Positions 16,618 to 31,757 of a stretch of 35,128 bases of DNA are shown here, piece after piece; position 1 is the first letter of the stretch; each line of letters opens with the position of its first letter. The stretch is from a virus. The DNA is taken from positions 1 to 35,128 of the IMG/VR virus record IMGVR_UViG_3300031659_000037. The stretch is one strand, 5' to 3'. The notes below the pieces were generated by a model that made no database searches, was not told where the DNA came from, and worked only from the letters and a program-made list of their open reading frames with translations. Both the position numbers and the translations under genes were made by a program.

Positions 16618-16767
16618 ATGGAAGTGATGGACGCGATAGGTGTAATCTGGCCAATTGCGGCGGCTTTCGTGACTCTGGTAATTGTGCTTGCCAAGATGCA
16701 CTCAGACATCGAGCAGATAAAAGAGAAAGTCCGTACCCTTTTTGAACTGTGGAACAAGAAGGACTAA
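16618..16767 (+). CDS. 49-residue membrane protein with coiled-coil tail, holin candidate
   Basis: A short gene starting 2 bases after the stop of the 291-residue gene. Residues about 5-25 (DAIGVIWPIAAAFVTLVIVL) are one membrane segment; residues 28-46 form a charged amphipathic helix (DIEQIKEKVRTLFELW). A membrane segment plus short coil is typical of small phage membrane proteins near lysis or virion genes. I propose a holin or spanin-like accessory, without proof. Its stop codon (16765-16767) overlaps the stop of the opposing helicase gene. Confidence 0.65.
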   Translation: MEVMDAIGVIWPIAAAFVTLVIVLAKMHSDIEQIKEKVRTLFELWNKKD

Positions 16768-18212
16768 CGTAGCCAAGACTGAACATCTTCACCCAGTACC
16801 TGCCCCGCAAGGTCTATCTTGCTACGCAAAGCACCCAGTATCTTTTCGTCAATCGTACCCGGCGATACTAAATCCACATAAGTAACCTTATTTTTCTGCC
16901 CGATACGATGCGCCCTATCTTCGGACTGGAGCCTTATTTCCAAGTCATAACTGTTACTGTAATAAATGACCGTGTTAGCTTCTGTCAAAGTAATGCCATA
17001 ACCACCTGTTTTAGGTTGCCCTACAAAAAACCGTAGCGTCGAATCTTTTTGTTGAAACGTCTCTACGATTTCCTGCCGCTCATCTTGCGGAGTAGCCCCG
17101 TAATAGGTTGCGACCGATTCGGGTCCGAACCGGTCGCGCAAGGCATCAGCTATCTGTTGAATGTCGTGTGTATACGTCGCCCAAATGATTGCCTTACCTT
17201 GAAACTCTTCTGTGATGTCGAGTAGTTCGTTTAGTCGATTACTTTTAATAGACTGTACCTCACCATCATCCGGCTGCAAATGTCCACAGCAAATTTGTTG
17301 AAGTCTCATAATCTGCGTCAAAACACTAGCTGTCGTGGCCAACTCGCCGCTCTGTAACTTAGCCAAAGCCAGCTTTTTCATCTGCACATATAGTTTTGTT
17401 TGTTCGGGAGTAAGAGGTATTTCCCGGCGTGTATATACCTTAACAGGTAAGTCAAGGCAGTCTACTTTTAAAACACGGCTGCTAAACTTATCTAACTTTT
17501 CAGAAAGTTCGTCCAACCGGCGATAGCCCACAATCTGTTGAAAGCTACGGTGACCCATCGTGCGTTTTTGCACATTGGCGTACCGCGCTTGGAAAGCAAA
17601 GTAGCTGTTAAAGCCCAGTGCTTTCTCGGCAAGAAAGTTACATTGGCTGAACAGGTCCATAGGACTCTTTGTTATAGGGGAACCGGTCAATATCCGGCGA
17701 TATTTAGCCCATTTCTGCAAAGCCAATATATTCTTCGTCCGCGCAGCGTTCCTGTTTTTAATTGTAGTCGATTCATCGACTACAACAATGTTATCCGGAT
17801 TTTGATACAAAAAGGCTAAAGCAGCCTCCGTGCCTCGTGTCGAGGAGAAAGCTTCTATATTGACTACAAATACTTTCAGTATAGGGTCACGATTAACGAT
17901 AAAATCTTTTAATTCTGTCTCAAAGCGTTTCGTTTTAGCGGGAATCCAACGCATAATGTCTCGTGGGATACGCTTGGGTAAATGTATAGGGACCTCACCT
18001 TTTACCCAGTTATCGTAAACACCCTTTGGAGCTATGATTAAAGCGGCTTTAACTTTACCGGCTTCATACAATGCAGCCATAGTGTCGATGGCTACTTTAG
18101 ATTTACCCGTACCCATTTCCATAAGCAGCGCGTAATATTCCTTGGCCCACGACTCCTCGAAAGAAGTCCGTTGATGGTCGTATGGTTGAGTCTCATATTT
18201 GTAATCTAACAT
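16764..18212 (-). CDS. SNF2-family DNA-dependent ATPase/helicase (SF2)
   Basis: 482 residues, the only minus-strand gene in the window. Motif I is MEMGTGKSKVA (about residues 31-41), motif II VVVDESTTIKN (DEST where many relatives have DEAH or DESH), motif III ILTGSPI, motif V GGYGITLTEANTVIYYS and motif VI EDRAHRIGQ, all in order, so both RecA-like lobes are complete. SNF2 proteins translocate on double-stranded DNA and remodel bound proteins; phage versions of this compact type are common and may assist replication or recombination. Start at 18212 is preceded by GGGGCAA. A TTGACA / TACAAT promoter lies upstream on the minus strand. Convergent with the virion operon and divergent from the replication operon. 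Confidence 0.92.
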   Translation of the reverse strand: MLDYKYETQPYDHQRTSFEESWAKEYYALLMEMGTGKSKVAIDTMAALYEAGKVKAALIIAPKGVYDNWVKGEVPIHLPKRIPRDIMRWIPAKTKRFETELKDFIVNRDPILKVFVVNIEAFSSTRGTEAALAFLYQNPDNIVVVDESTTIKNRNAARTKNILALQKWAKYRRILTGSPITKSPMDLFSQCNFLAEKALGFNSYFAFQARYANVQKRTMGHRSFQQIVGYRRLDELSEKLDKFSSRVLKVDCLDLPVKVYTRREIPLTPEQTKLYVQMKKLALAKLQSGELATTASVLTQIMRLQQICCGHLQPDDGEVQSIKSNRLNELLDITEEFQGKAIIWATYTHDIQQIADALRDRFGPESVATYYGATPQDERQEIVETFQQKDSTLRFFVGQPKTGGYGITLTEANTVIYYSNSYDLEIRLQSEDRAHRIGQKNKVTYVDLVSPGTIDEKILGALRSKIDLAGQVLGEDVQSWLR

Positions 18213-18318: not shown

Positions 18319-18900
18319 ATGAGTGACCTAGAAAAAATGATGGAGCAGGATTTTGAAAAAAATCAAGCCTCATCTGTTGAGAAAATTGACCAGCAGGGGC
18401 TTACTTCAATAGCTGCGTTGGCCAGAACAATCCGTGACAGAGAAGAGCAGATAAAAACCCTTGAGCAAGTTCTCAAGGATGAAAAGAAAGTTCTTTTGAA
18501 ACTTACGGATGAGGATATGCCTTCGATGCTTGCAGAGATCGGCATGTCTTCGTTTGCACTAGATGACGGGTCAACCGTCGAGGTTAAACAAACCTATGGT
18601 GCGTCTATTCTTGTTGATAAACGTCCAGAAGCCTACGATTGGCTACGCGATAACGGACATGATGACATTATTAAAAATACTGTCTTGTGTCAGTTTGGCC
18701 GTGGAGAGGACGATCAAGCAGGAGCCTTTGCGTCTTTCGCGCAACAGCAAGGGTATATTCCAGAGCAAAAAACCGAAGTTCATCCCCAAACTTTACGTGC
18801 GTTCGTCAAAGAACGTTGTGAAGCAGGGGAGGATTTTCCGATGGAATTGTTCGGAGCATGGGTGGGTCAACGCGCAGTAATTAAACGAGGAAAGAAATAA
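18319..18900 (+). CDS. Conserved phage protein of the replication operon, coiled coil
   Basis: 193 residues. ATG 18319 is chosen because AAAGGAG sits at 18305-18311; upstream in-frame codons cross the promoter. N-terminal half is a long coiled coil (residues about 30-75, including REEQIKTLEQVLKDEKK); the C-terminal half is globular with HPQTLRAFVKERCEAGE and FGAWVGQRAVIKR. I have seen similar C-terminal motifs in phage replication regions but cannot name a family or activity. First gene of the replication operon, with a one-base TAATG overlap with the single-strand binding candidate. Confidence 0.7.
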   Translation: MSDLEKMMEQDFEKNQASSVEKIDQQGLTSIAALARTIRDREEQIKTLEQVLKDEKKVLLKLTDEDMPSMLAEIGMSSFALDDGSTVEVKQTYGASILVDKRPEAYDWLRDNGHDDIIKNTVLCQFGRGEDDQAGAFASFAQQQGYIPEQKTEVHPQTLRAFVKERCEAGEDFPMELFGAWVGQRAVIKRGKK

Positions 18901-19676
18901 TGACTAAAAAAAATGAAGTAGCTGAAGCTGGTAGCAGAGAAGTAGCAGTGTTTGATATTGCTATGATGGAGCAGGATGCAGGACAAGGTATGGATAACAT
19001 GGGGACAGAAGACTTAGCTCTTCCTTTCCTGAAAGTCCTATCCGGAAACGATCCAGTATTGGATGAAAATGAAACGGCTCGTAAGGGCGATATTTATAAC
19101 ACCGTAACGGGTATAGCTTATAAAGGTAAGGAAGGGGTTCGAGTAGTACCCTGCGCTTATCAACGTAGGTTTATTCAGTGGGCACCACGTGGCAGTGGTA
19201 GCGGTGCGCCAACGGCAATTTATGAACCGGGACAAGCTCGTCCGAAAACAGAACGGTCTGCCGAAGACAACAAAGAATATGTTGTCGATGGTAGTGGGGA
19301 GTACATCGAAGAAACCCACCAGCATTTTGTAATGCTTCTCAACGAAGATGGGTCCTACGAGACAGCCTTGATTGCAATGAAGTCCACCCAGCTTAAAAAG
19401 AGCAGGAAGTGGAACAGCATGATGGCTTCTCGAACAATGCAGGGTAAAAACGGGCCGTTTACGCCGCCCCGCTTTAGCCACATTTACCACATGAAAACCA
19501 TAGCTGAGGAAAATTCCAAAGGGTCATGGCATGGTTGGGAGATGTCCTGTGAAGGTGTCATTGAAGACGGCGCTCTGTATACCCGCGCAAAGGGTTTTGC
19601 AGAGAGCATCACAGCAGGCGATGTTGTTGTGAAACATACGGATGACGAAGGTGAAGGTAAAACAACACCGTTTTAA
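18900..19676 (+). CDS. Probable single-stranded DNA-binding protein (gp2.5-like layout)
   Basis: 258 residues. The centre is beta-rich with aromatic and basic residues (RRFIQWAPRGSG; RFSHIYHMKT), followed by an acidic tail ending DDEGEGKTTPF. An acidic C-terminus closed by a bulky aromatic residue is the hallmark of T7 gp2.5-like and other replication single-strand binding proteins, where it binds the polymerase and helicase. Location between two replication genes supports this. Primary sequence similarity to gp2.5 is not obvious by eye, so the call rests on layout and context. A terminator follows directly. Confidence 0.55.
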   Translation: MTKKNEVAEAGSREVAVFDIAMMEQDAGQGMDNMGTEDLALPFLKVLSGNDPVLDENETARKGDIYNTVTGIAYKGKEGVRVVPCAYQRRFIQWAPRGSGSGAPTAIYEPGQARPKTERSAEDNKEYVVDGSGEYIEETHQHFVMLLNEDGSYETALIAMKSTQLKKSRKWNSMMASRTMQGKNGPFTPPRFSHIYHMKTIAEENSKGSWHGWEMSCEGVIEDGALYTRAKGFAESITAGDVVVKHTDDEGEGKTTPF

Positions 19677-19684
19677 GTAGTCAT

Positions 19685-19718
19685 GCGGCGGGGTGCGTGT
19701 CATCTCGCCGCTTTTTTT
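19685..19718 (+). terminator. Intrinsic terminator after the SSB candidate
   Basis: GCGGCG (19685-19690) pairs with CGCCGC (19706-19711) and is followed by seven T at 19712-19718. It may cap abundant binding-protein transcripts before the primase gene. Confidence 0.8.
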
Positions 19719-19734
19719 CCGTATGGGGGCAACA

Positions 19735-21270
19735 ATGTCAGTAGATAAATTTATGGCCATATTTGATGGCCTGAAGGAAGCTCACGGCTACTTCAAAATA
19801 GAGAACACAGGCGCGAACGGCAAAGCAAAAGGCAAAGCTGGCGTACTGAGAGAACCCCGAACAAAGAAACTTTGGGAAAACCACTTGTCGGGGACCGGCA
19901 GTGGATTGGGTATCATCCCAATAAATGAAAACAACATGTGTAAGTGGGGTTGTATCGACGTGGACCAGTATCCACTTGACCACAAGATGCTTGTTGATAA
20001 AGTAAGAAAGTTAAAATTACCTTTAGTAGTATGCCGATCCAAGTCTGGGGGTGCGCACTGCTTTTTATTCTCAACCGAATGGGTTTCAGCGAAGGACATG
20101 CAGCGTTCGCTTCAACAAATGTCCGCGGCCCTCGGTTATGGCGAAAGTGAGATATTCCCCAAGCAAATAAAATTACACCTAGACCGTGGTGACGTGGGAA
20201 ACTTTCTCAACCTTCCATACTATGATCACGAGAACGGCCTCCGATATGTAATATTGGATGACGGCACGTCTGGAACGTTAAACGAATTTATTGAGTTGCA
20301 TACTCAATATGCACAAACCCCGGAAGAAGTCGTTAAGCTACAAATAGTAGACAGTGGTGCTACCGACCTATTAAAGGACGGGCCACCGTGTTTGCAGATA
20401 CTGTGTAAGCAGCGCATTAGTGAAGGCGGTCGAAACAATGGTTTATTTAACATCGGAGTATACTTACGCAAAGCGTATCCGGACAGTTGGGAATCTGAAA
20501 TCTTGCGATTCAACATGGAGTATCTATCTCCGCCGTTACCATTGCCGGAGGTCAACATAGTTGCCAAGCAACTAGACCGCAAGGAATACGCCTACAAATG
20601 CTCTGACTCGCCAATTAACTCCTACTGCAACAAAGAGCTATGCCGTACCCGTAAGTTCGGCATAGGGGCCGCTGTAGCGGGCGCTACGGTAGCTAACCTA
20701 CGCAAGTATAACTCTACTCCCCCTGTCTGGTTTATGGACGTTAACGGGGAGCCTCTGGAGCTTGATACCGAAGCCTTGATGAGCCAGCCCATGTTTCAAA
20801 AAGCTTGCATGGAACAACTTAACTTCATGCCACGTTCTACTGCCAAGCAGCAGTGGGAAAGTCGTATTAGTACCTTGATGACTGAGATGCGTGATAACGA
20901 AAGCGCGATCATGGAAGTATCCGTGGACGCGAGTATTAGTGGTCAGTTCTATGACTATCTCGAAGAGTTCTGTAGTCACTTACAGCAGGCGCAGGATAAA
21001 GAAGAAATTTTGCTCCGCCGACCTTGGACTGATGAAGAGGAAGGGGTGACGTATTTCAGGTTAAAAGACTTTGAAAGTTATCTGAAGAAAAACAAATTCT
21101 TTGAGTACAAGTCGCATAGGATAGCTCAACGTTTGAGAGACATTAACGGCGACAGCATGGTATTGAAGATCAAAGGCCGCTCTGTGAGAGTCTGGAAGAT
21201 ACCTGCTTTTGAGAACAGTGATGTAGACTTAAAAACACCATCGTTTGGTGGACAGGAGGCACCATTTTGA
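19735..21270 (+). CDS. Archaeo-eukaryotic-type primase (TOTE/LigD-like AEP)
   Basis: 511 residues from ATG 19735; an in-frame ATG at 19723 (TATGGGGGCAAC context) is an alternative. The catalytic motifs are present: hydrophobic run then DVD (Asp75 and Asp77), SKSGGAHCF (His108) and GNFLNLPYYD (near residue 160). This pattern matches the AEP primase family found in TOTE systems and phage replicases, which makes primers and sometimes extends DNA. A C-terminal Cys cluster (Cys289, Cys298, Cys303 in CSDSPINSYCNKELC) resembles the metal-binding PriCT segments of such primases. The last 200 residues may carry DNA-binding helices. No DnaG or DnaB gene is present, so this is the likely replication primase. 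Confidence 0.85.
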   Translation: MSVDKFMAIFDGLKEAHGYFKIENTGANGKAKGKAGVLREPRTKKLWENHLSGTGSGLGIIPINENNMCKWGCIDVDQYPLDHKMLVDKVRKLKLPLVVCRSKSGGAHCFLFSTEWVSAKDMQRSLQQMSAALGYGESEIFPKQIKLHLDRGDVGNFLNLPYYDHENGLRYVILDDGTSGTLNEFIELHTQYAQTPEEVVKLQIVDSGATDLLKDGPPCLQILCKQRISEGGRNNGLFNIGVYLRKAYPDSWESEILRFNMEYLSPPLPLPEVNIVAKQLDRKEYAYKCSDSPINSYCNKELCRTRKFGIGAAVAGATVANLRKYNSTPPVWFMDVNGEPLELDTEALMSQPMFQKACMEQLNFMPRSTAKQQWESRISTLMTEMRDNESAIMEVSVDASISGQFYDYLEEFCSHLQQAQDKEEILLRRPWTDEEEGVTYFRLKDFESYLKKNKFFEYKSHRIAQRLRDINGDSMVLKIKGRSVRVWKIPAFENSDVDLKTPSFGGQEAPF

Positions 21271-28292: not shown

Positions 28293-28913
28293 ATGCCACG
28301 ATCTGCCGCACCTAAATCTGTTATACCTACACCGAAAAAGAAAGTAGGTAGACCCAAAGCCACAAAAGCCCAACCACTTACGCGAAGGCAGGAACTGTTT
28401 GTTAAAGAACTGGTTTCTAAAGATGGCCAGATAACTATGCGTGAAGCAGCCATCAATGCGGGTTATCCTGTTGGTTCCGCCCACACTAGAGCTTATGAGC
28501 TAACCAACCCAAACATTAGCCCCCATGTTGTTAACGCTATCCAAGCGTATCGCTCAGAACTGGATGCTAAATTTGGTGTTAACTACCAGCGACACCTAAA
28601 AGACCTGCAAACCATTAGAGACATGGCTTTGAACAATGGCGCGTACAGTGCTGCGGTTCAAGCCGAATACCGGCGAGGGCAAGCGCAAGGTGATATTTAT
28701 GTAAGCAAGAGTGAAATCAGAACTGGCAGCATCGACAGTATGAGCAAAGATGAAGTCATGAAGGCACTCAAGGAGATAAAACAAAGCTATGCCCCGATTA
28801 CTATCGACGTTACTCCCGAAGGAGAAAGCAATCCCCAAAACCGCGACAAAGCGCGAGGCCGACTTTTGGAGGCAGATGAAATCGGGGATGAAGAGGACCG
28901 GACGCGACATTAA
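28293..28913 (+). CDS. terS: Terminase small subunit
   Basis: 206 residues. After a basic Pro/Lys-rich start (KKKVGRPKATKAQPL) comes LTRRQELFVKELVSKDG..MREAAINAGYP, the N-terminal HTH of terminase small subunits, then a helical oligomerisation region and a charged C-terminal tail. The small subunit recognises phage DNA and loads the large subunit for packaging. The large subunit gene lies about 4.7 kb downstream instead of adjacent. The AT-rich repeat region directly upstream may contain its binding site. The end overlaps the nuclease gene by 125 bases. Confidence 0.8.
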   Translation: MPRSAAPKSVIPTPKKKVGRPKATKAQPLTRRQELFVKELVSKDGQITMREAAINAGYPVGSAHTRAYELTNPNISPHVVNAIQAYRSELDAKFGVNYQRHLKDLQTIRDMALNNGAYSAAVQAEYRRGQAQGDIYVSKSEIRTGSIDSMSKDEVMKALKEIKQSYAPITIDVTPEGESNPQNRDKARGRLLEADEIGDEEDRTRH

Positions 28914-29268
28914 AGCGACCCGGTTAGAGACTTGGGCAATGCCCGGAGTGCCTGACGTAGTTTTGTGTGATGAACGTGGTTTGTTTCACTTTGTAGAATT
29001 AAAAGCCACCGCAGGTAACGCGGTCGATCTTCGTCCCCACCAAGTGGCTTGGCTAACCAATCATGGGCACGGTAGCGTCTGGGTAATGCTTAAAAAGCAC
29101 AAAACTAAAAACCAACCTGAACAGCTATTCTTGTATAGAGGTTCGGAAGCAATGGACCTTAAAATGGAAGGTTTAAAGATTGAACCGTTTTACCATACAT
29201 CCGGCCCGGTAGACTGGGATTATGTATTCAACTTGATCTGTCCCACAACATCGCATACAATCCCATAG
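28789..29268 (+). CDS. VRR-NUC-type PD-(D/E)XK nuclease
   Basis: 159 residues from ATG 28789. GVPDVVLCDERGLFHFVELKA supplies the PD...ExK nuclease core in two short pieces (Asp of GVPDV, then Glu and Lys of VELK), and RPHQVAWL with VWVMLKK completes the VRR-NUC fold. EADFWRQMKSGMKR upstream fits the domain N-terminus, so the long start is preferred; ATG 28876 has GGAGG only 3 bases before it and would give 130 residues. Family members are structure-specific nucleases acting on branched DNA; role in resolving DNA before packaging is inferred. Deep overlap with terS. Confidence 0.8.
   Translation: MPRLLSTLLPKEKAIPKTATKREADFWRQMKSGMKRTGRDIKATRLETWAMPGVPDVVLCDERGLFHFVELKATAGNAVDLRPHQVAWLTNHGHGSVWVMLKKHKTKNQPEQLFLYRGSEAMDLKMEGLKIEPFYHTSGPVDWDYVFNLICPTTSHTIP
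29233..29261 (+). promoter_or_regulatory. Promoter inside the nuclease gene end
   Basis: TTGATC (29233-29238), 17-base spacer, TACAAT (29256-29261) in the context ATCGCATACAATCCCATAG. AATCCCATA (29259-29267) overlaps the -10. Drives the gene at 29295. Confidence 0.6.
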
Positions 29269-29634: not shown

Positions 29635-29648
29635 GATTAAAAAATATT

Positions 29649-29673
29649 AGCCCGGTTGACTCCGGGCTTTTTT
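29649..29673 (+). terminator. Strong intrinsic terminator
   Basis: AGCCCGG (29649-29655), loop TTGACT, CCGGGCT (29662-29668), then TTTTTT to 29673. Ends the terS-to-29634 region and opens the cassette array. Confidence 0.92.
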
Positions 29674-29690
29674 ATGGTGTAAGGTATGCG

Positions 29691-29722
29691 ATAAATCTTA
29701 TACACAACTATGGGGGCAACCA
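29691..29722 (+). promoter_or_regulatory. Promoter leader of the permuted Cys-rich gene
   Basis: ATAAAT at 29691-29696 in the context TATGCGATAAATCTTATAC, matching the shared promoter family base for base around the -10; no clear -35. The leader contains TATGGGGGCAAC just before the ATG at 29722. Confidence 0.45.
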
Positions 29723-30468
29723 TGTTAAAGACAGTAGAAACAAGCCGAGCAGAAAAAACCAACGGGATCGCAGTAACCTATCGCGCAGGCAATGGCGAAA
29801 AGTATGCGACCTGCCCAGCATCTTGCAAAATGAATTGTAGCGGTAAAGGTGCGCAGGAAATTGACGCAGATTATTTTGATGCGTTATTGGATGCGGTTCC
29901 GAATAAAGGCCAGTCTTTTACCTATACGCATTTCAGTTGGAATAAATGGGCCGACAAATTAAAGCCGGGTAAAACGGTGGTTAACTTTTCTGCGGATACT
30001 TTAGTAAGTGCTGCCGCAGCATCGCGAGCGGTCCCGACCGTTGTAGTGCTTCCGGAATCCGAATGGCAGCACGGGAAAAAAACCAGCGCACCATTATTTG
30101 GTCGAACTAATAACCGCGGCGACTTTATAGTTTCGGACCGGGTGCCGGTGGTTCGCTGCCCCGCAGAATACCGCGACGGATTTAGCTGCCGCGATTGTGG
30201 GAACGGTGACCCGTTATGCGCTCGCCTAGATCGAAACTTTATAATTGGGTTTACTGCGCACGGCGCCCGCAAGAAAAAAGCAGCGGACCCGGAAACCCGT
30301 GGCGGATGTTATGCCGACGGCGGAAACGTTCGCCTACATTGGGACGCCACTAGCAACCACCACCAGCCCGACGAAACCGACGGCGAGAAACTAAAACGGT
30401 TCGCCAAGTCTTTACCCCCACGCAGTATTATACGGCACCATGTTGCCGGGGATATTGGAGCGGAATAA
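29722..30468 (+). CDS. Cys-rich DUF7227/gp88-like phage protein, apparently circularly permuted
   Basis: 248 residues from ATG 29722; an in-frame ATG at 29710 is possible. Motifs in order: CPASC (residues 31-35), TYTH (67-70), VVNFSADTL, VVRCPAEY (Cys146), SCRDCGNGDPLC (Cys156, 159, 166), GFTAHG (176-181), GGCYADGGNVRLHW (Cys196) and LPPRSIIRHHVAGDIG at the very C-terminus. These are all signatures I associate with DUF7227-like proteins, but there CYAQ.G...W and RH..AGD come before TYTH. The Cys and His suggest a metal or Fe-S centre; no activity is established. It has its own promoter and the gene is GC-richer than the replication block, as in acquired cassettes. Confidence 0.6.
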   Translation: MLKTVETSRAEKTNGIAVTYRAGNGEKYATCPASCKMNCSGKGAQEIDADYFDALLDAVPNKGQSFTYTHFSWNKWADKLKPGKTVVNFSADTLVSAAAASRAVPTVVVLPESEWQHGKKTSAPLFGRTNNRGDFIVSDRVPVVRCPAEYRDGFSCRDCGNGDPLCARLDRNFIIGFTAHGARKKKAADPETRGGCYADGGNVRLHWDATSNHHQPDETDGEKLKRFAKSLPPRSIIRHHVAGDIGAE

Positions 30469-30566: not shown

Positions 30567-31757
30567 ATGACTTATCAAACTAACGCATTTGCGCACGGGA
30601 TTGGCAATTCCGAAGTATCGTCACAGTGGTTTAGCCGCCCGGATGATCAAAAGTTTTTATCTCTTGATGACATGCTGGCCCATAAAAAAATAGACTCGCA
30701 ACGGATGACAAGCCGGACGGTTGACACCCACAAAATCCAGATTGTTGGAGAATTTGACGAAGCGAACCCTAGCCGCGGAGATTTGCGGATTGAATACGCT
30801 GACGACAACCACCGCGAGCACGTGAACAGTCCAACCAATTGGAGCTTTGGACAATTGTCCCAACTGGCCGGAGCGCCTGCGGGTTATCTTAAAGACTTGC
30901 CCGCACCCTTGGCAGCGGATTGCATTCAATGGGGTTTGAAATATAACCGGGGTAAAGAATTGATTAAGGTATACGGCAGTCAAACCGACGGCGGAGAATT
31001 GCGAGCCGCAACTGGTCCCGACTATGGCCGCATTTATGATTGGGAAATACTCGAACCAATTAAGCATTTGGTTGACCAATCCGGCGGACGTTGGAAAGTG
31101 CCGGGGATGATGACGGGAAGTAATAACGGCATGGCGGTTTATGATCCAGAAATACCCGTTTCAATGGATACCACCACATTGTTCGCCAGCGACCGCGACG
31201 TTTTCGTTTTCTTGGTGGATGATCGCAACCCTATCGAAGTCGGTAAGCTTGCCAACGGTGAGCCTGATTTAATGTTCCGCGGGTTTTATGCTTGGAACAG
31301 TGAGACCGGCAGCAAAACGGCAGGTATTGCGGCCATGTATCTGCGCGGGGTTTGTATGAATCGCAACCTATGGGGCGTCGAGAATTTCCAAGAGATTAAA
31401 ATAAGGCATACTAAATTTGCCCCGGATCGTTTCGCCTACGAAGCCCGCCCGGCTTTGGAAAGCTTTGCGCATGGTGCGACCGCTACATTTATCGAGGGCG
31501 TTCAAGCCGCGAAAGCTGCCAAGATTGCGACCGATGACGAAAGCCGTTTAGAGTTTCTAAGCAAACGCGCTGGACTATCTGGGCGCATGGCGAAAGCCGC
31601 AGCGGCGCGACATATGATAGAGGAAGGCCGACCGGTCGAGACGGTATGGGACGCAGCGCAGGCGATAACCGCAATCGCTCGCGATATACCGCACCAAGAT
31701 TCCCGGATTGAAGTAGAGAAAAAGGCCGGTGCGCTACTGGATAAAGTCGCAGCCTAG
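30567..31757 (+). CDS. DUF932 / TIGR03299-like phage-plasmid protein
   Basis: 396 residues from ATG 30567, with TTACGGAGA before it; the frame upstream of this crosses the terminator and is untranslated. LAGAPAGYLKDLPAPLAADCIQWGL, split here after LAGAPAGYLKDLP, together with ATGPDYGRIYDWEIL, ASDRDVFVFLVDD, MYLRGVCMNRNLWGVENF and a helical C-terminus (FLSKRAGL..AAARHM) match the DUF932 family, carried by many phages and plasmids. No biochemical role is proven; it is often in accessory loci. A stand-alone cassette with its own promoter and terminator. Confidence 0.82.
   Translation: MTYQTNAFAHGIGNSEVSSQWFSRPDDQKFLSLDDMLAHKKIDSQRMTSRTVDTHKIQIVGEFDEANPSRGDLRIEYADDNHREHVNSPTNWSFGQLSQLAGAPAGYLKDLPAPLAADCIQWGLKYNRGKELIKVYGSQTDGGELRAATGPDYGRIYDWEILEPIKHLVDQSGGRWKVPGMMTGSNNGMAVYDPEIPVSMDTTTLFASDRDVFVFLVDDRNPIEVGKLANGEPDLMFRGFYAWNSETGSKTAGIAAMYLRGVCMNRNLWGVENFQEIKIRHTKFAPDRFAYEARPALESFAHGATATFIEGVQAAKAAKIATDDESRLEFLSKRAGLSGRMAKAAAARHMIEEGRPVETVWDAAQAITAIARDIPHQDSRIEVEKKAGALLDKVAA

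Follow-up and report, generated by a model that had tools for sequence, protein, structure and literature searches.

A non-circular permutation of a protein chain was shown by cryo-EM in the major capsid protein of phage BPP-1, its order changing from N-alpha-beta in the HK97 fold to N-beta-alpha (excerpt of PMC3863775). Such permutations are stated to be rarer in proteins than circular ones, and permuted DNA methyltransferases are cited as a non-circular case (excerpt of PMC10085705). In the open-licence papers searched, no mention of DUF7227 and no literature on phage 'gene product 88' was found. By title, the same papers yielded just one jumbo-phage report for gp88 and radical SAM in phage, no case of circular permutation in radical SAM enzymes, and nothing pertinent on natural circularly permuted TIM barrels or noncircular permutation.

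Canonical DUF7227 proteins (PF23872) are built of three blocks in the order A (N-KTG..TCPxxC), B (GCYA..W..RHxxAGD) and C (YTH..CPAE..CxxC..C..AHG). All four phage records that were read (PAK_P1, Roomu-2, CRP-345 and DSL-LC05) have this A-B-C order, in agreement with the original prediction, which had CYA and RH..AGD preceding TYTH, with the AHG segment last. PAK_P1, DSL-LC05 and CRP-345, the three that were scanned, each match PF23872 as a single colinear stretch. Colinear order describes the canonical proteins; the Pfam cut-off rule itself says nothing on order. The stretch of DNA analyzed here (the window; 35,128 nt, positions 1 to 35,128 of virus record IMGVR_UViG_3300031659_000037) contains a gene that, with a probability of roughly 85%, encodes a non-circularly permuted DUF7227 protein, its A-B-C order having given way to A-C-B a single time, at the base of one clade of phages.

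Block order in the window protein and its relatives

The gene and its blocks are as follows.

29722..30468, + strand: DUF7227 protein of 248 aa, block order A-C-B (PF23872, E 5.1e-29; AlphaFold2 model, pLDDT 90.0, pTM 0.88)
29722..29856, + strand: block A, residues 1-45 (hhalign to canonical A, 97.6%, E 3.7e-12)
29857..30303, + strand: block C, residues 46-194 (hhalign to canonical C, 99.9%, E 1.7e-31)
30304..30465, + strand: block B, residues 195-248 (hhalign to canonical B, 99.1%, E 6.2e-19; Pfam profile 36-85 at 30301-30456; secondary structure)

The reading frame is open from 29710 and its conserved start is the ATG at 29722, where the original prediction had also placed it. The DUF7227-like identity proposed for the product was confirmed by the PF23872 match, which reached 101.9 bits against a gathering cut-off of 27. 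That match does not reproduce the block order of the profile, as profile positions 90-218 (29854-30285, 66.7 bits) come before positions 36-85 (27.2 bits), both stretches scoring above the cut-off, so the swapped order is not a chance arrangement. The motifs and the order in which they had been reported were all recovered from the product: CPASC (residues 31-35), YTH (68-70), NFSA (88-91), CPAEY (146-150), C156/C159, FTAHG (177-181), GCYA (195-198) and RHHVAGD (238-244). Block A, comprising strand 17-21 and TCPASC (Cys31 and Cys35), keeps its N-terminal position. Block C contains YTH, NFSA, CPAEY, C156, C159, C166, FTAHG and the old C-terminal tail (ARKKKAADPETRG), which serves as a linker in the window protein. 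Block B, with GCYADGG, W207, two helices and strand 236-240 bearing RHHVAGD, takes the last place instead of the second. The named phage DSL-LC04 has the same A-C-B order, and its PF23872 match is broken into three stretches.

The correspondence of the blocks was assessed by cutting alignments of 59 ACB and 83 ABC proteins into blocks and comparing all nine block pairs by hhalign. The window fold alignment retained 59 of 62 proteins, leaving out L001 (a named-phage record) and the incomplete L052 and L185; the canonical fold alignment (n = 83, L059 first) was made without the named-phage loci and without L069, which has a long N-terminal extension. Proteins without a usable start (two ACB, 195 to 193; eleven ABC, 164 to 153) and 10 of 346 proteins with missing boundary motifs were removed. 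Each same-block pair matched at the values listed above, and all six cross pairs gave probabilities below 1%. Over the loci covered (best 80 per search), the AHG-to-GCY distance is 10-12 residues in 194 of 196 ACB proteins, the canonical tail after AHG is 9-27 residues in the 255 of 275 ABC proteins where the motif matched, and the ACB chain ends 2-8 residues past AGD in the 192 of 196 where the motif matched.

The original prediction had read this arrangement as a natural circular permutation, in which the old termini are fused and new termini lie elsewhere. Its core, a permutation within one domain, is borne out by the block comparison, and the old C-terminal tail does run into block B, as it would in a circular permutant. 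The circular part is not: the N-terminal 45 residues are homologous to canonical A, and because this block is unmoved, A-C-B is neither of the rotations of A-B-C (B-C-A and C-A-B). Every block is thus homologous to its canonical counterpart in an order that is no rotation, and a circular event is very improbable. The KKKAADPETRGG linker, taken earlier to join the old N- and C-termini, is really the old C-terminal tail and connects to the start of the former middle block, a junction that leaves the old N-terminal block at the N-terminus.

Block models were run over 473 stretches (472 loci, being the best 80 per search, and the window), giving 275 A-B-C, 196 A-C-B and two A-C proteins; these counts contain overlapping and duplicate loci and the window three times, the distinct block sets numbering 224 ABC and 145 ACB. 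No intermediate order appeared among the 473 stretches, and since only the best 80 loci per search were taken, rare intermediates could have escaped. The two A-C proteins without B (L054 and L056) stop at the ends of their stretches. An apparent second A block 3' of the ACB gene in L345 (26 bits) was judged to be a chance match in a short ORF.

Conservation was compared between the two sets of distinct proteins (145 ACB, 224 ABC). None of the seven cysteines varies in either set, and the R, G and D of RHxxAGD stand at 100% (rounded) in either order. At 31 alignment positions, all seven cysteines included, identity is at least 90% in both orders; besides the cysteines, the residues conserved across both orders are R, GD, Y.H, N.S, F and H. 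Between the window gene and five relatives, dN is well below dS for the whole gene and for each of the three blocks, showing that the gene is under purifying selection.

Predicted fold and cysteine site

AlphaFold2 gave a canonical model (L059) with pLDDT 96.5 and pTM 0.92. In the window model, confidence is lowest (pLDDT 78-82 in ten-residue blocks) around the linker, at the beginning of B and at the C-terminal end. Block B is predicted to form the same elements in both: two helices (canonical, 43-53 and 61-69; window, 201-211 and 220-230) and then a strand (76-79 and 236-240, respectively). The window model is no one-off, as the separate BFVD prediction for a protein of 42% identity (A0A6J5N836) fits it at TM 0.83/0.90. 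A second BFVD entry, A0A3Q8I2K9, gave TM 0.82/0.85 to the canonical model and 0.46/0.52 to the window model.

The fold of the canonical model resembles a barrel of the TIM type, with Z of at least 2 for 896 of 1000 chains. Its best PDB matches were the radical SAM enzymes EpeE (Z 7.2, rmsd 4.5, 153 aligned), viperin (Z 6.3, rmsd 3.9, 156 aligned) and QueE (Z 6.2). All of these Z values lie below 8, and because unrelated TIM barrels rank close behind, the resemblance is suggestive only. Foldseek of the canonical model against the PDB returned nothing under E 0.001. With the sequential aligner, the window model reached Z of at least 2 for just 15 of 996 chains, a loss of matches that would fit an inner strand being reached from the other chain end. 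In the predicted barrel, block B has most likely not changed place, because its old ends and the new joint lie in loops beside the same putative metal site. Mean-field DCA of B against A and C (effective sequence numbers 32.7 for ACB and 104.0 for ABC) gave a raw rank correlation of 0.075, above all 1000 row shuffles (highest 0.068); the signal was gone once column variability was controlled, and the A-C positive control was empty too, so the analysis counts neither way.

Behind its first strand, the canonical protein carries C27, C31 and C38 (C27-x3-C31-x6-C38 in PAK_P1), AGD closes the second strand, and block C supplies four further cysteines (C180, C190, C193 and C196). The window protein has C31-x3-C35, and the third cysteine of the loop is Cys196 from block B. 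Radical SAM enzymes carry a C-x3-C-x2-C motif in a cluster loop, together with a GGE motif. Neither the PAK_P1 nor the window spacing shows C-x3-C-x2-C. By analogy, the canonical cysteine loop and AGD resemble the cluster loop and GGE, and block C could hold a second cluster or a zinc site. We infer that the DUF7227 protein binds metal. Radical SAM family models gave no Pfam match at E up to 10 in four relatives, and neither NCBIfam and PADLOC nor solved structures searched by sequence gave a match. The likeliest reading of the function, which we put forward tentatively and at slightly less than even odds, is a putative cluster-dependent enzyme on a radical-SAM-like barrel.

Phylogeny, proposed route and genomic setting

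A tree was built from 84 representatives after the ACB chains had been rearranged into A-B-C order. The ACB proteins form one clade (33 of 33, support 100). Phages phiFa, Tunturi_1 and Rey, all three A-B-C, fall outside ABC and ACB together, which makes the A-C-B order the derived one. Thermus phage phiFa and Tunturi_1 match both DUF7227 and GP88 (PF17338), the latter colinearly, and the order of the wider family is therefore A-B-C. The ACB clade is also recovered from single blocks, with support 0.94 (A), 0.88 (B) and 1.00 (C), although the block-B tree is poorly resolved, with two outgroups beside ACB (support 0.40). Mean identity between ACB and ABC proteins is 0.35 for block A, 0.34 for B and 0.32 for C. 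This equal divergence, together with the ACB clade in each block, fits a single rearrangement inside one gene.

Gene 170 of Mycobacterium phage Rey (L364:1452-2156) scores just under the Pfam cut-off for DUF7227 and has no GP88 match. It reaches 355 bits with phrog_2554, which also matches every DUF7227 protein tested. The canonical model matches 'Gene product 88' entries in BFVD. By sequence, DUF7227, GP88 and the Rey gene 170 group look like one superfamily.

We propose that an ancestral A-B-C chain would have become A-C-B in a single event. The block from GCYA to AGD (the loop with the third cysteine, two helices and one strand) would have been lost from behind block A and re-attached after the intact old C-terminal tail, leaving a chain that stops shortly past AGD. 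Cys31 and Cys35 near the N-terminus would still meet Cys196 from the C-terminal block, since B most likely keeps its place beside the same putative metal site. Foreign DNA need not be invoked, because the linker is the old tail. The joints suggest a route in which B-C was duplicated and the first B and the second C were then lost, or an equivalent rearrangement; this route is a conjecture, since no intermediate form was found.

Other histories for block B were weighed against this proposal. One is that recombination or fusion brought in B from a second DUF7227 gene, with which the absence of an intermediate among the 473 stretches (best 80 per search) and the weak B-only tree would agree. The ACB proteins nevertheless form one clade for B as they do for A and C, nested in no ABC lineage, and divergence is equal for all three blocks; we consider a second-gene source unlikely. 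Similarly unlikely is a rearrangement of B in space as well as in sequence, its strand lying beside the last strand in a new sequential barrel. The linker of just 10-12 residues speaks for this arrangement, and the coupling tests are uninformative on it. If the B strand were the last strand of a sequential barrel, however, the usual TIM matches would be expected; they were lost instead (best Z 2.5 for the window model versus 7.2 for the canonical one), and the cysteine, R and GD of B are invariant along with the conserved residues of A and C. The reverse history, with A-C-B ancestral and A-B-C derived, can be given hardly any weight. Both orders are widespread, but the three outgroup phages carry A-B-C and the GP88 matches run in that order. 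What the original prediction had named as counting against it, homologues showing the window's order as the common ancestral form, thus holds by half: the order is common (196 of 473 stretches, best 80 per search) but not ancestral. A single rearrangement inside one gene, with B kept in its old place, remains our preferred account.

The neighbours of the DUF7227 gene in the window are listed below.

28293..28913, + strand: terminase small subunit, conserved upstream neighbor of ACB genes (phrog_51, E 5.3e-10)
28789..29268, + strand: VRR-NUC or resolvase-like nuclease, conserved upstream neighbor (phrog_2165, E 6.9e-13; phrog_93, E 4e-07)
30570..31757, + strand: DUF932 protein, next downstream gene (PF06067, E 2.2e-06; phrog_1362, E 1.9e-46)

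The VRR_NUC match of the nuclease (E 0.023) lies below the cut-off, and its ORF shares about 125 bases (28789-28913), read in a different frame, with the 3' end of the small terminase ORF. Over the loci covered (best 80 per search), 167 ACB loci had at least 1.5 kb upstream, of which 163 contained a small terminase relative and 160 a nuclease relative, and a DUF932 relative was present in 65 of 166 with at least 1 kb downstream; for ABC loci, just 2 of 245 had the two upstream genes and 2 of 234 had DUF932. The A-B-C genes of these two loci (L115:2501-3178 and L132:2501-3178) thus lie within an ACB-type neighborhood. Their neighbors are nearest to ACB phages (small terminase 65-66% to L301, DUF932 67-68% to L201), and their DUF7227 gene is an ordinary A-B-C gene whose nearest relative is another ABC gene (76%). 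Judged by these sequence relationships, L115 and L132 are natural cases in which one chain order has taken the place of the other at a single slot. A slot that holds either order suggests that the two forms are functionally interchangeable. The fuller picture, that the window gene encodes an active, putative radical-SAM-like enzyme with a Cys31, Cys35 and Cys196 triad drawn from both chain ends and interchangeable in its slot with the normal-order enzyme, is possible but doubtful.

A ThyX relative lies near 35 of 275 ABC genes and 0 of 196 ACB genes (best 80 loci per search), L362 and L365-L372 being among the former. A link to nucleotide metabolism is possible; no function is claimed from these neighbors. 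Directly 5' of the DUF7227 gene, a GC-rich hairpin followed by a T run was read by eye at 29648-29680, given which the gene may start its own transcript. Elsewhere in the window, a Pam3_Gp34 family protein (18900-19676; PF23977, E 6.7e-63) adjoins a TOTE-type primase (19693-21270), a UvrD-like helicase and a family A polymerase, with an SNF2-type helicase (16764-18212) on the strand opposite to this neighborhood.

Comparison with known systems

Three things appear new here: a barrel-like cysteine protein whose chain is permuted non-circularly, the split of its cysteines between the chain ends, and the presence of both orders in one slot. The case asks how freely a chain can be reordered with its fold kept, and it is a clean one: there are two orders, no intermediates were found, the derived order forms one clade and the outgroup order is known. 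It also offers confident predicted models, small proteins and natural phages with either order in the same slot, so that the importance of chain order for folding and for assembly of a split metal site becomes testable. For annotation, it illustrates that a domain call from one profile can conceal a rearranged domain.

The closest relative in kind, canonical DUF7227 (PAK_P1, ADD65098.1), shares with the window protein the three blocks, the seven cysteines and the R, GD, Y.H, N.S, F and H residues; it differs in its A-B-C order and in that its C-terminal tail is a terminus, whereas in the window protein the tail is a linker. GP88 (PF17338) and its phage relatives are tied to DUF7227 via phiFa and Tunturi_1 but have the A-B-C order, and the window protein, with no match at E 1, does not reach the GP88 cut-off. 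Radical SAM enzymes such as EpeE, viperin and QueE have a barrel with a three-cysteine loop after strand 1 and a GD ending strand 2, an arrangement that canonical DUF7227, in our own reading, may share (best Z 7.2); the motif spacing differs (C-x3-C-x6-C in PAK_P1), the Z scores are below 8 and no family model matched.

Permuted DNA methyltransferases, cited as non-circular (excerpt of PMC10085705), resemble DUF7227 in having motif blocks in varying orders within one fold. Their fold is unrelated and several block orders occur among them, whereas DUF7227 has two orders and apparently one event. The BPP-1 capsid protein, as described in the excerpt of PMC3863775, likewise has three elements of which the first is fixed and the other two are swapped. 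Its capsid fold is unrelated to the window protein, which is barrel-like and carries cysteines at both chain ends.
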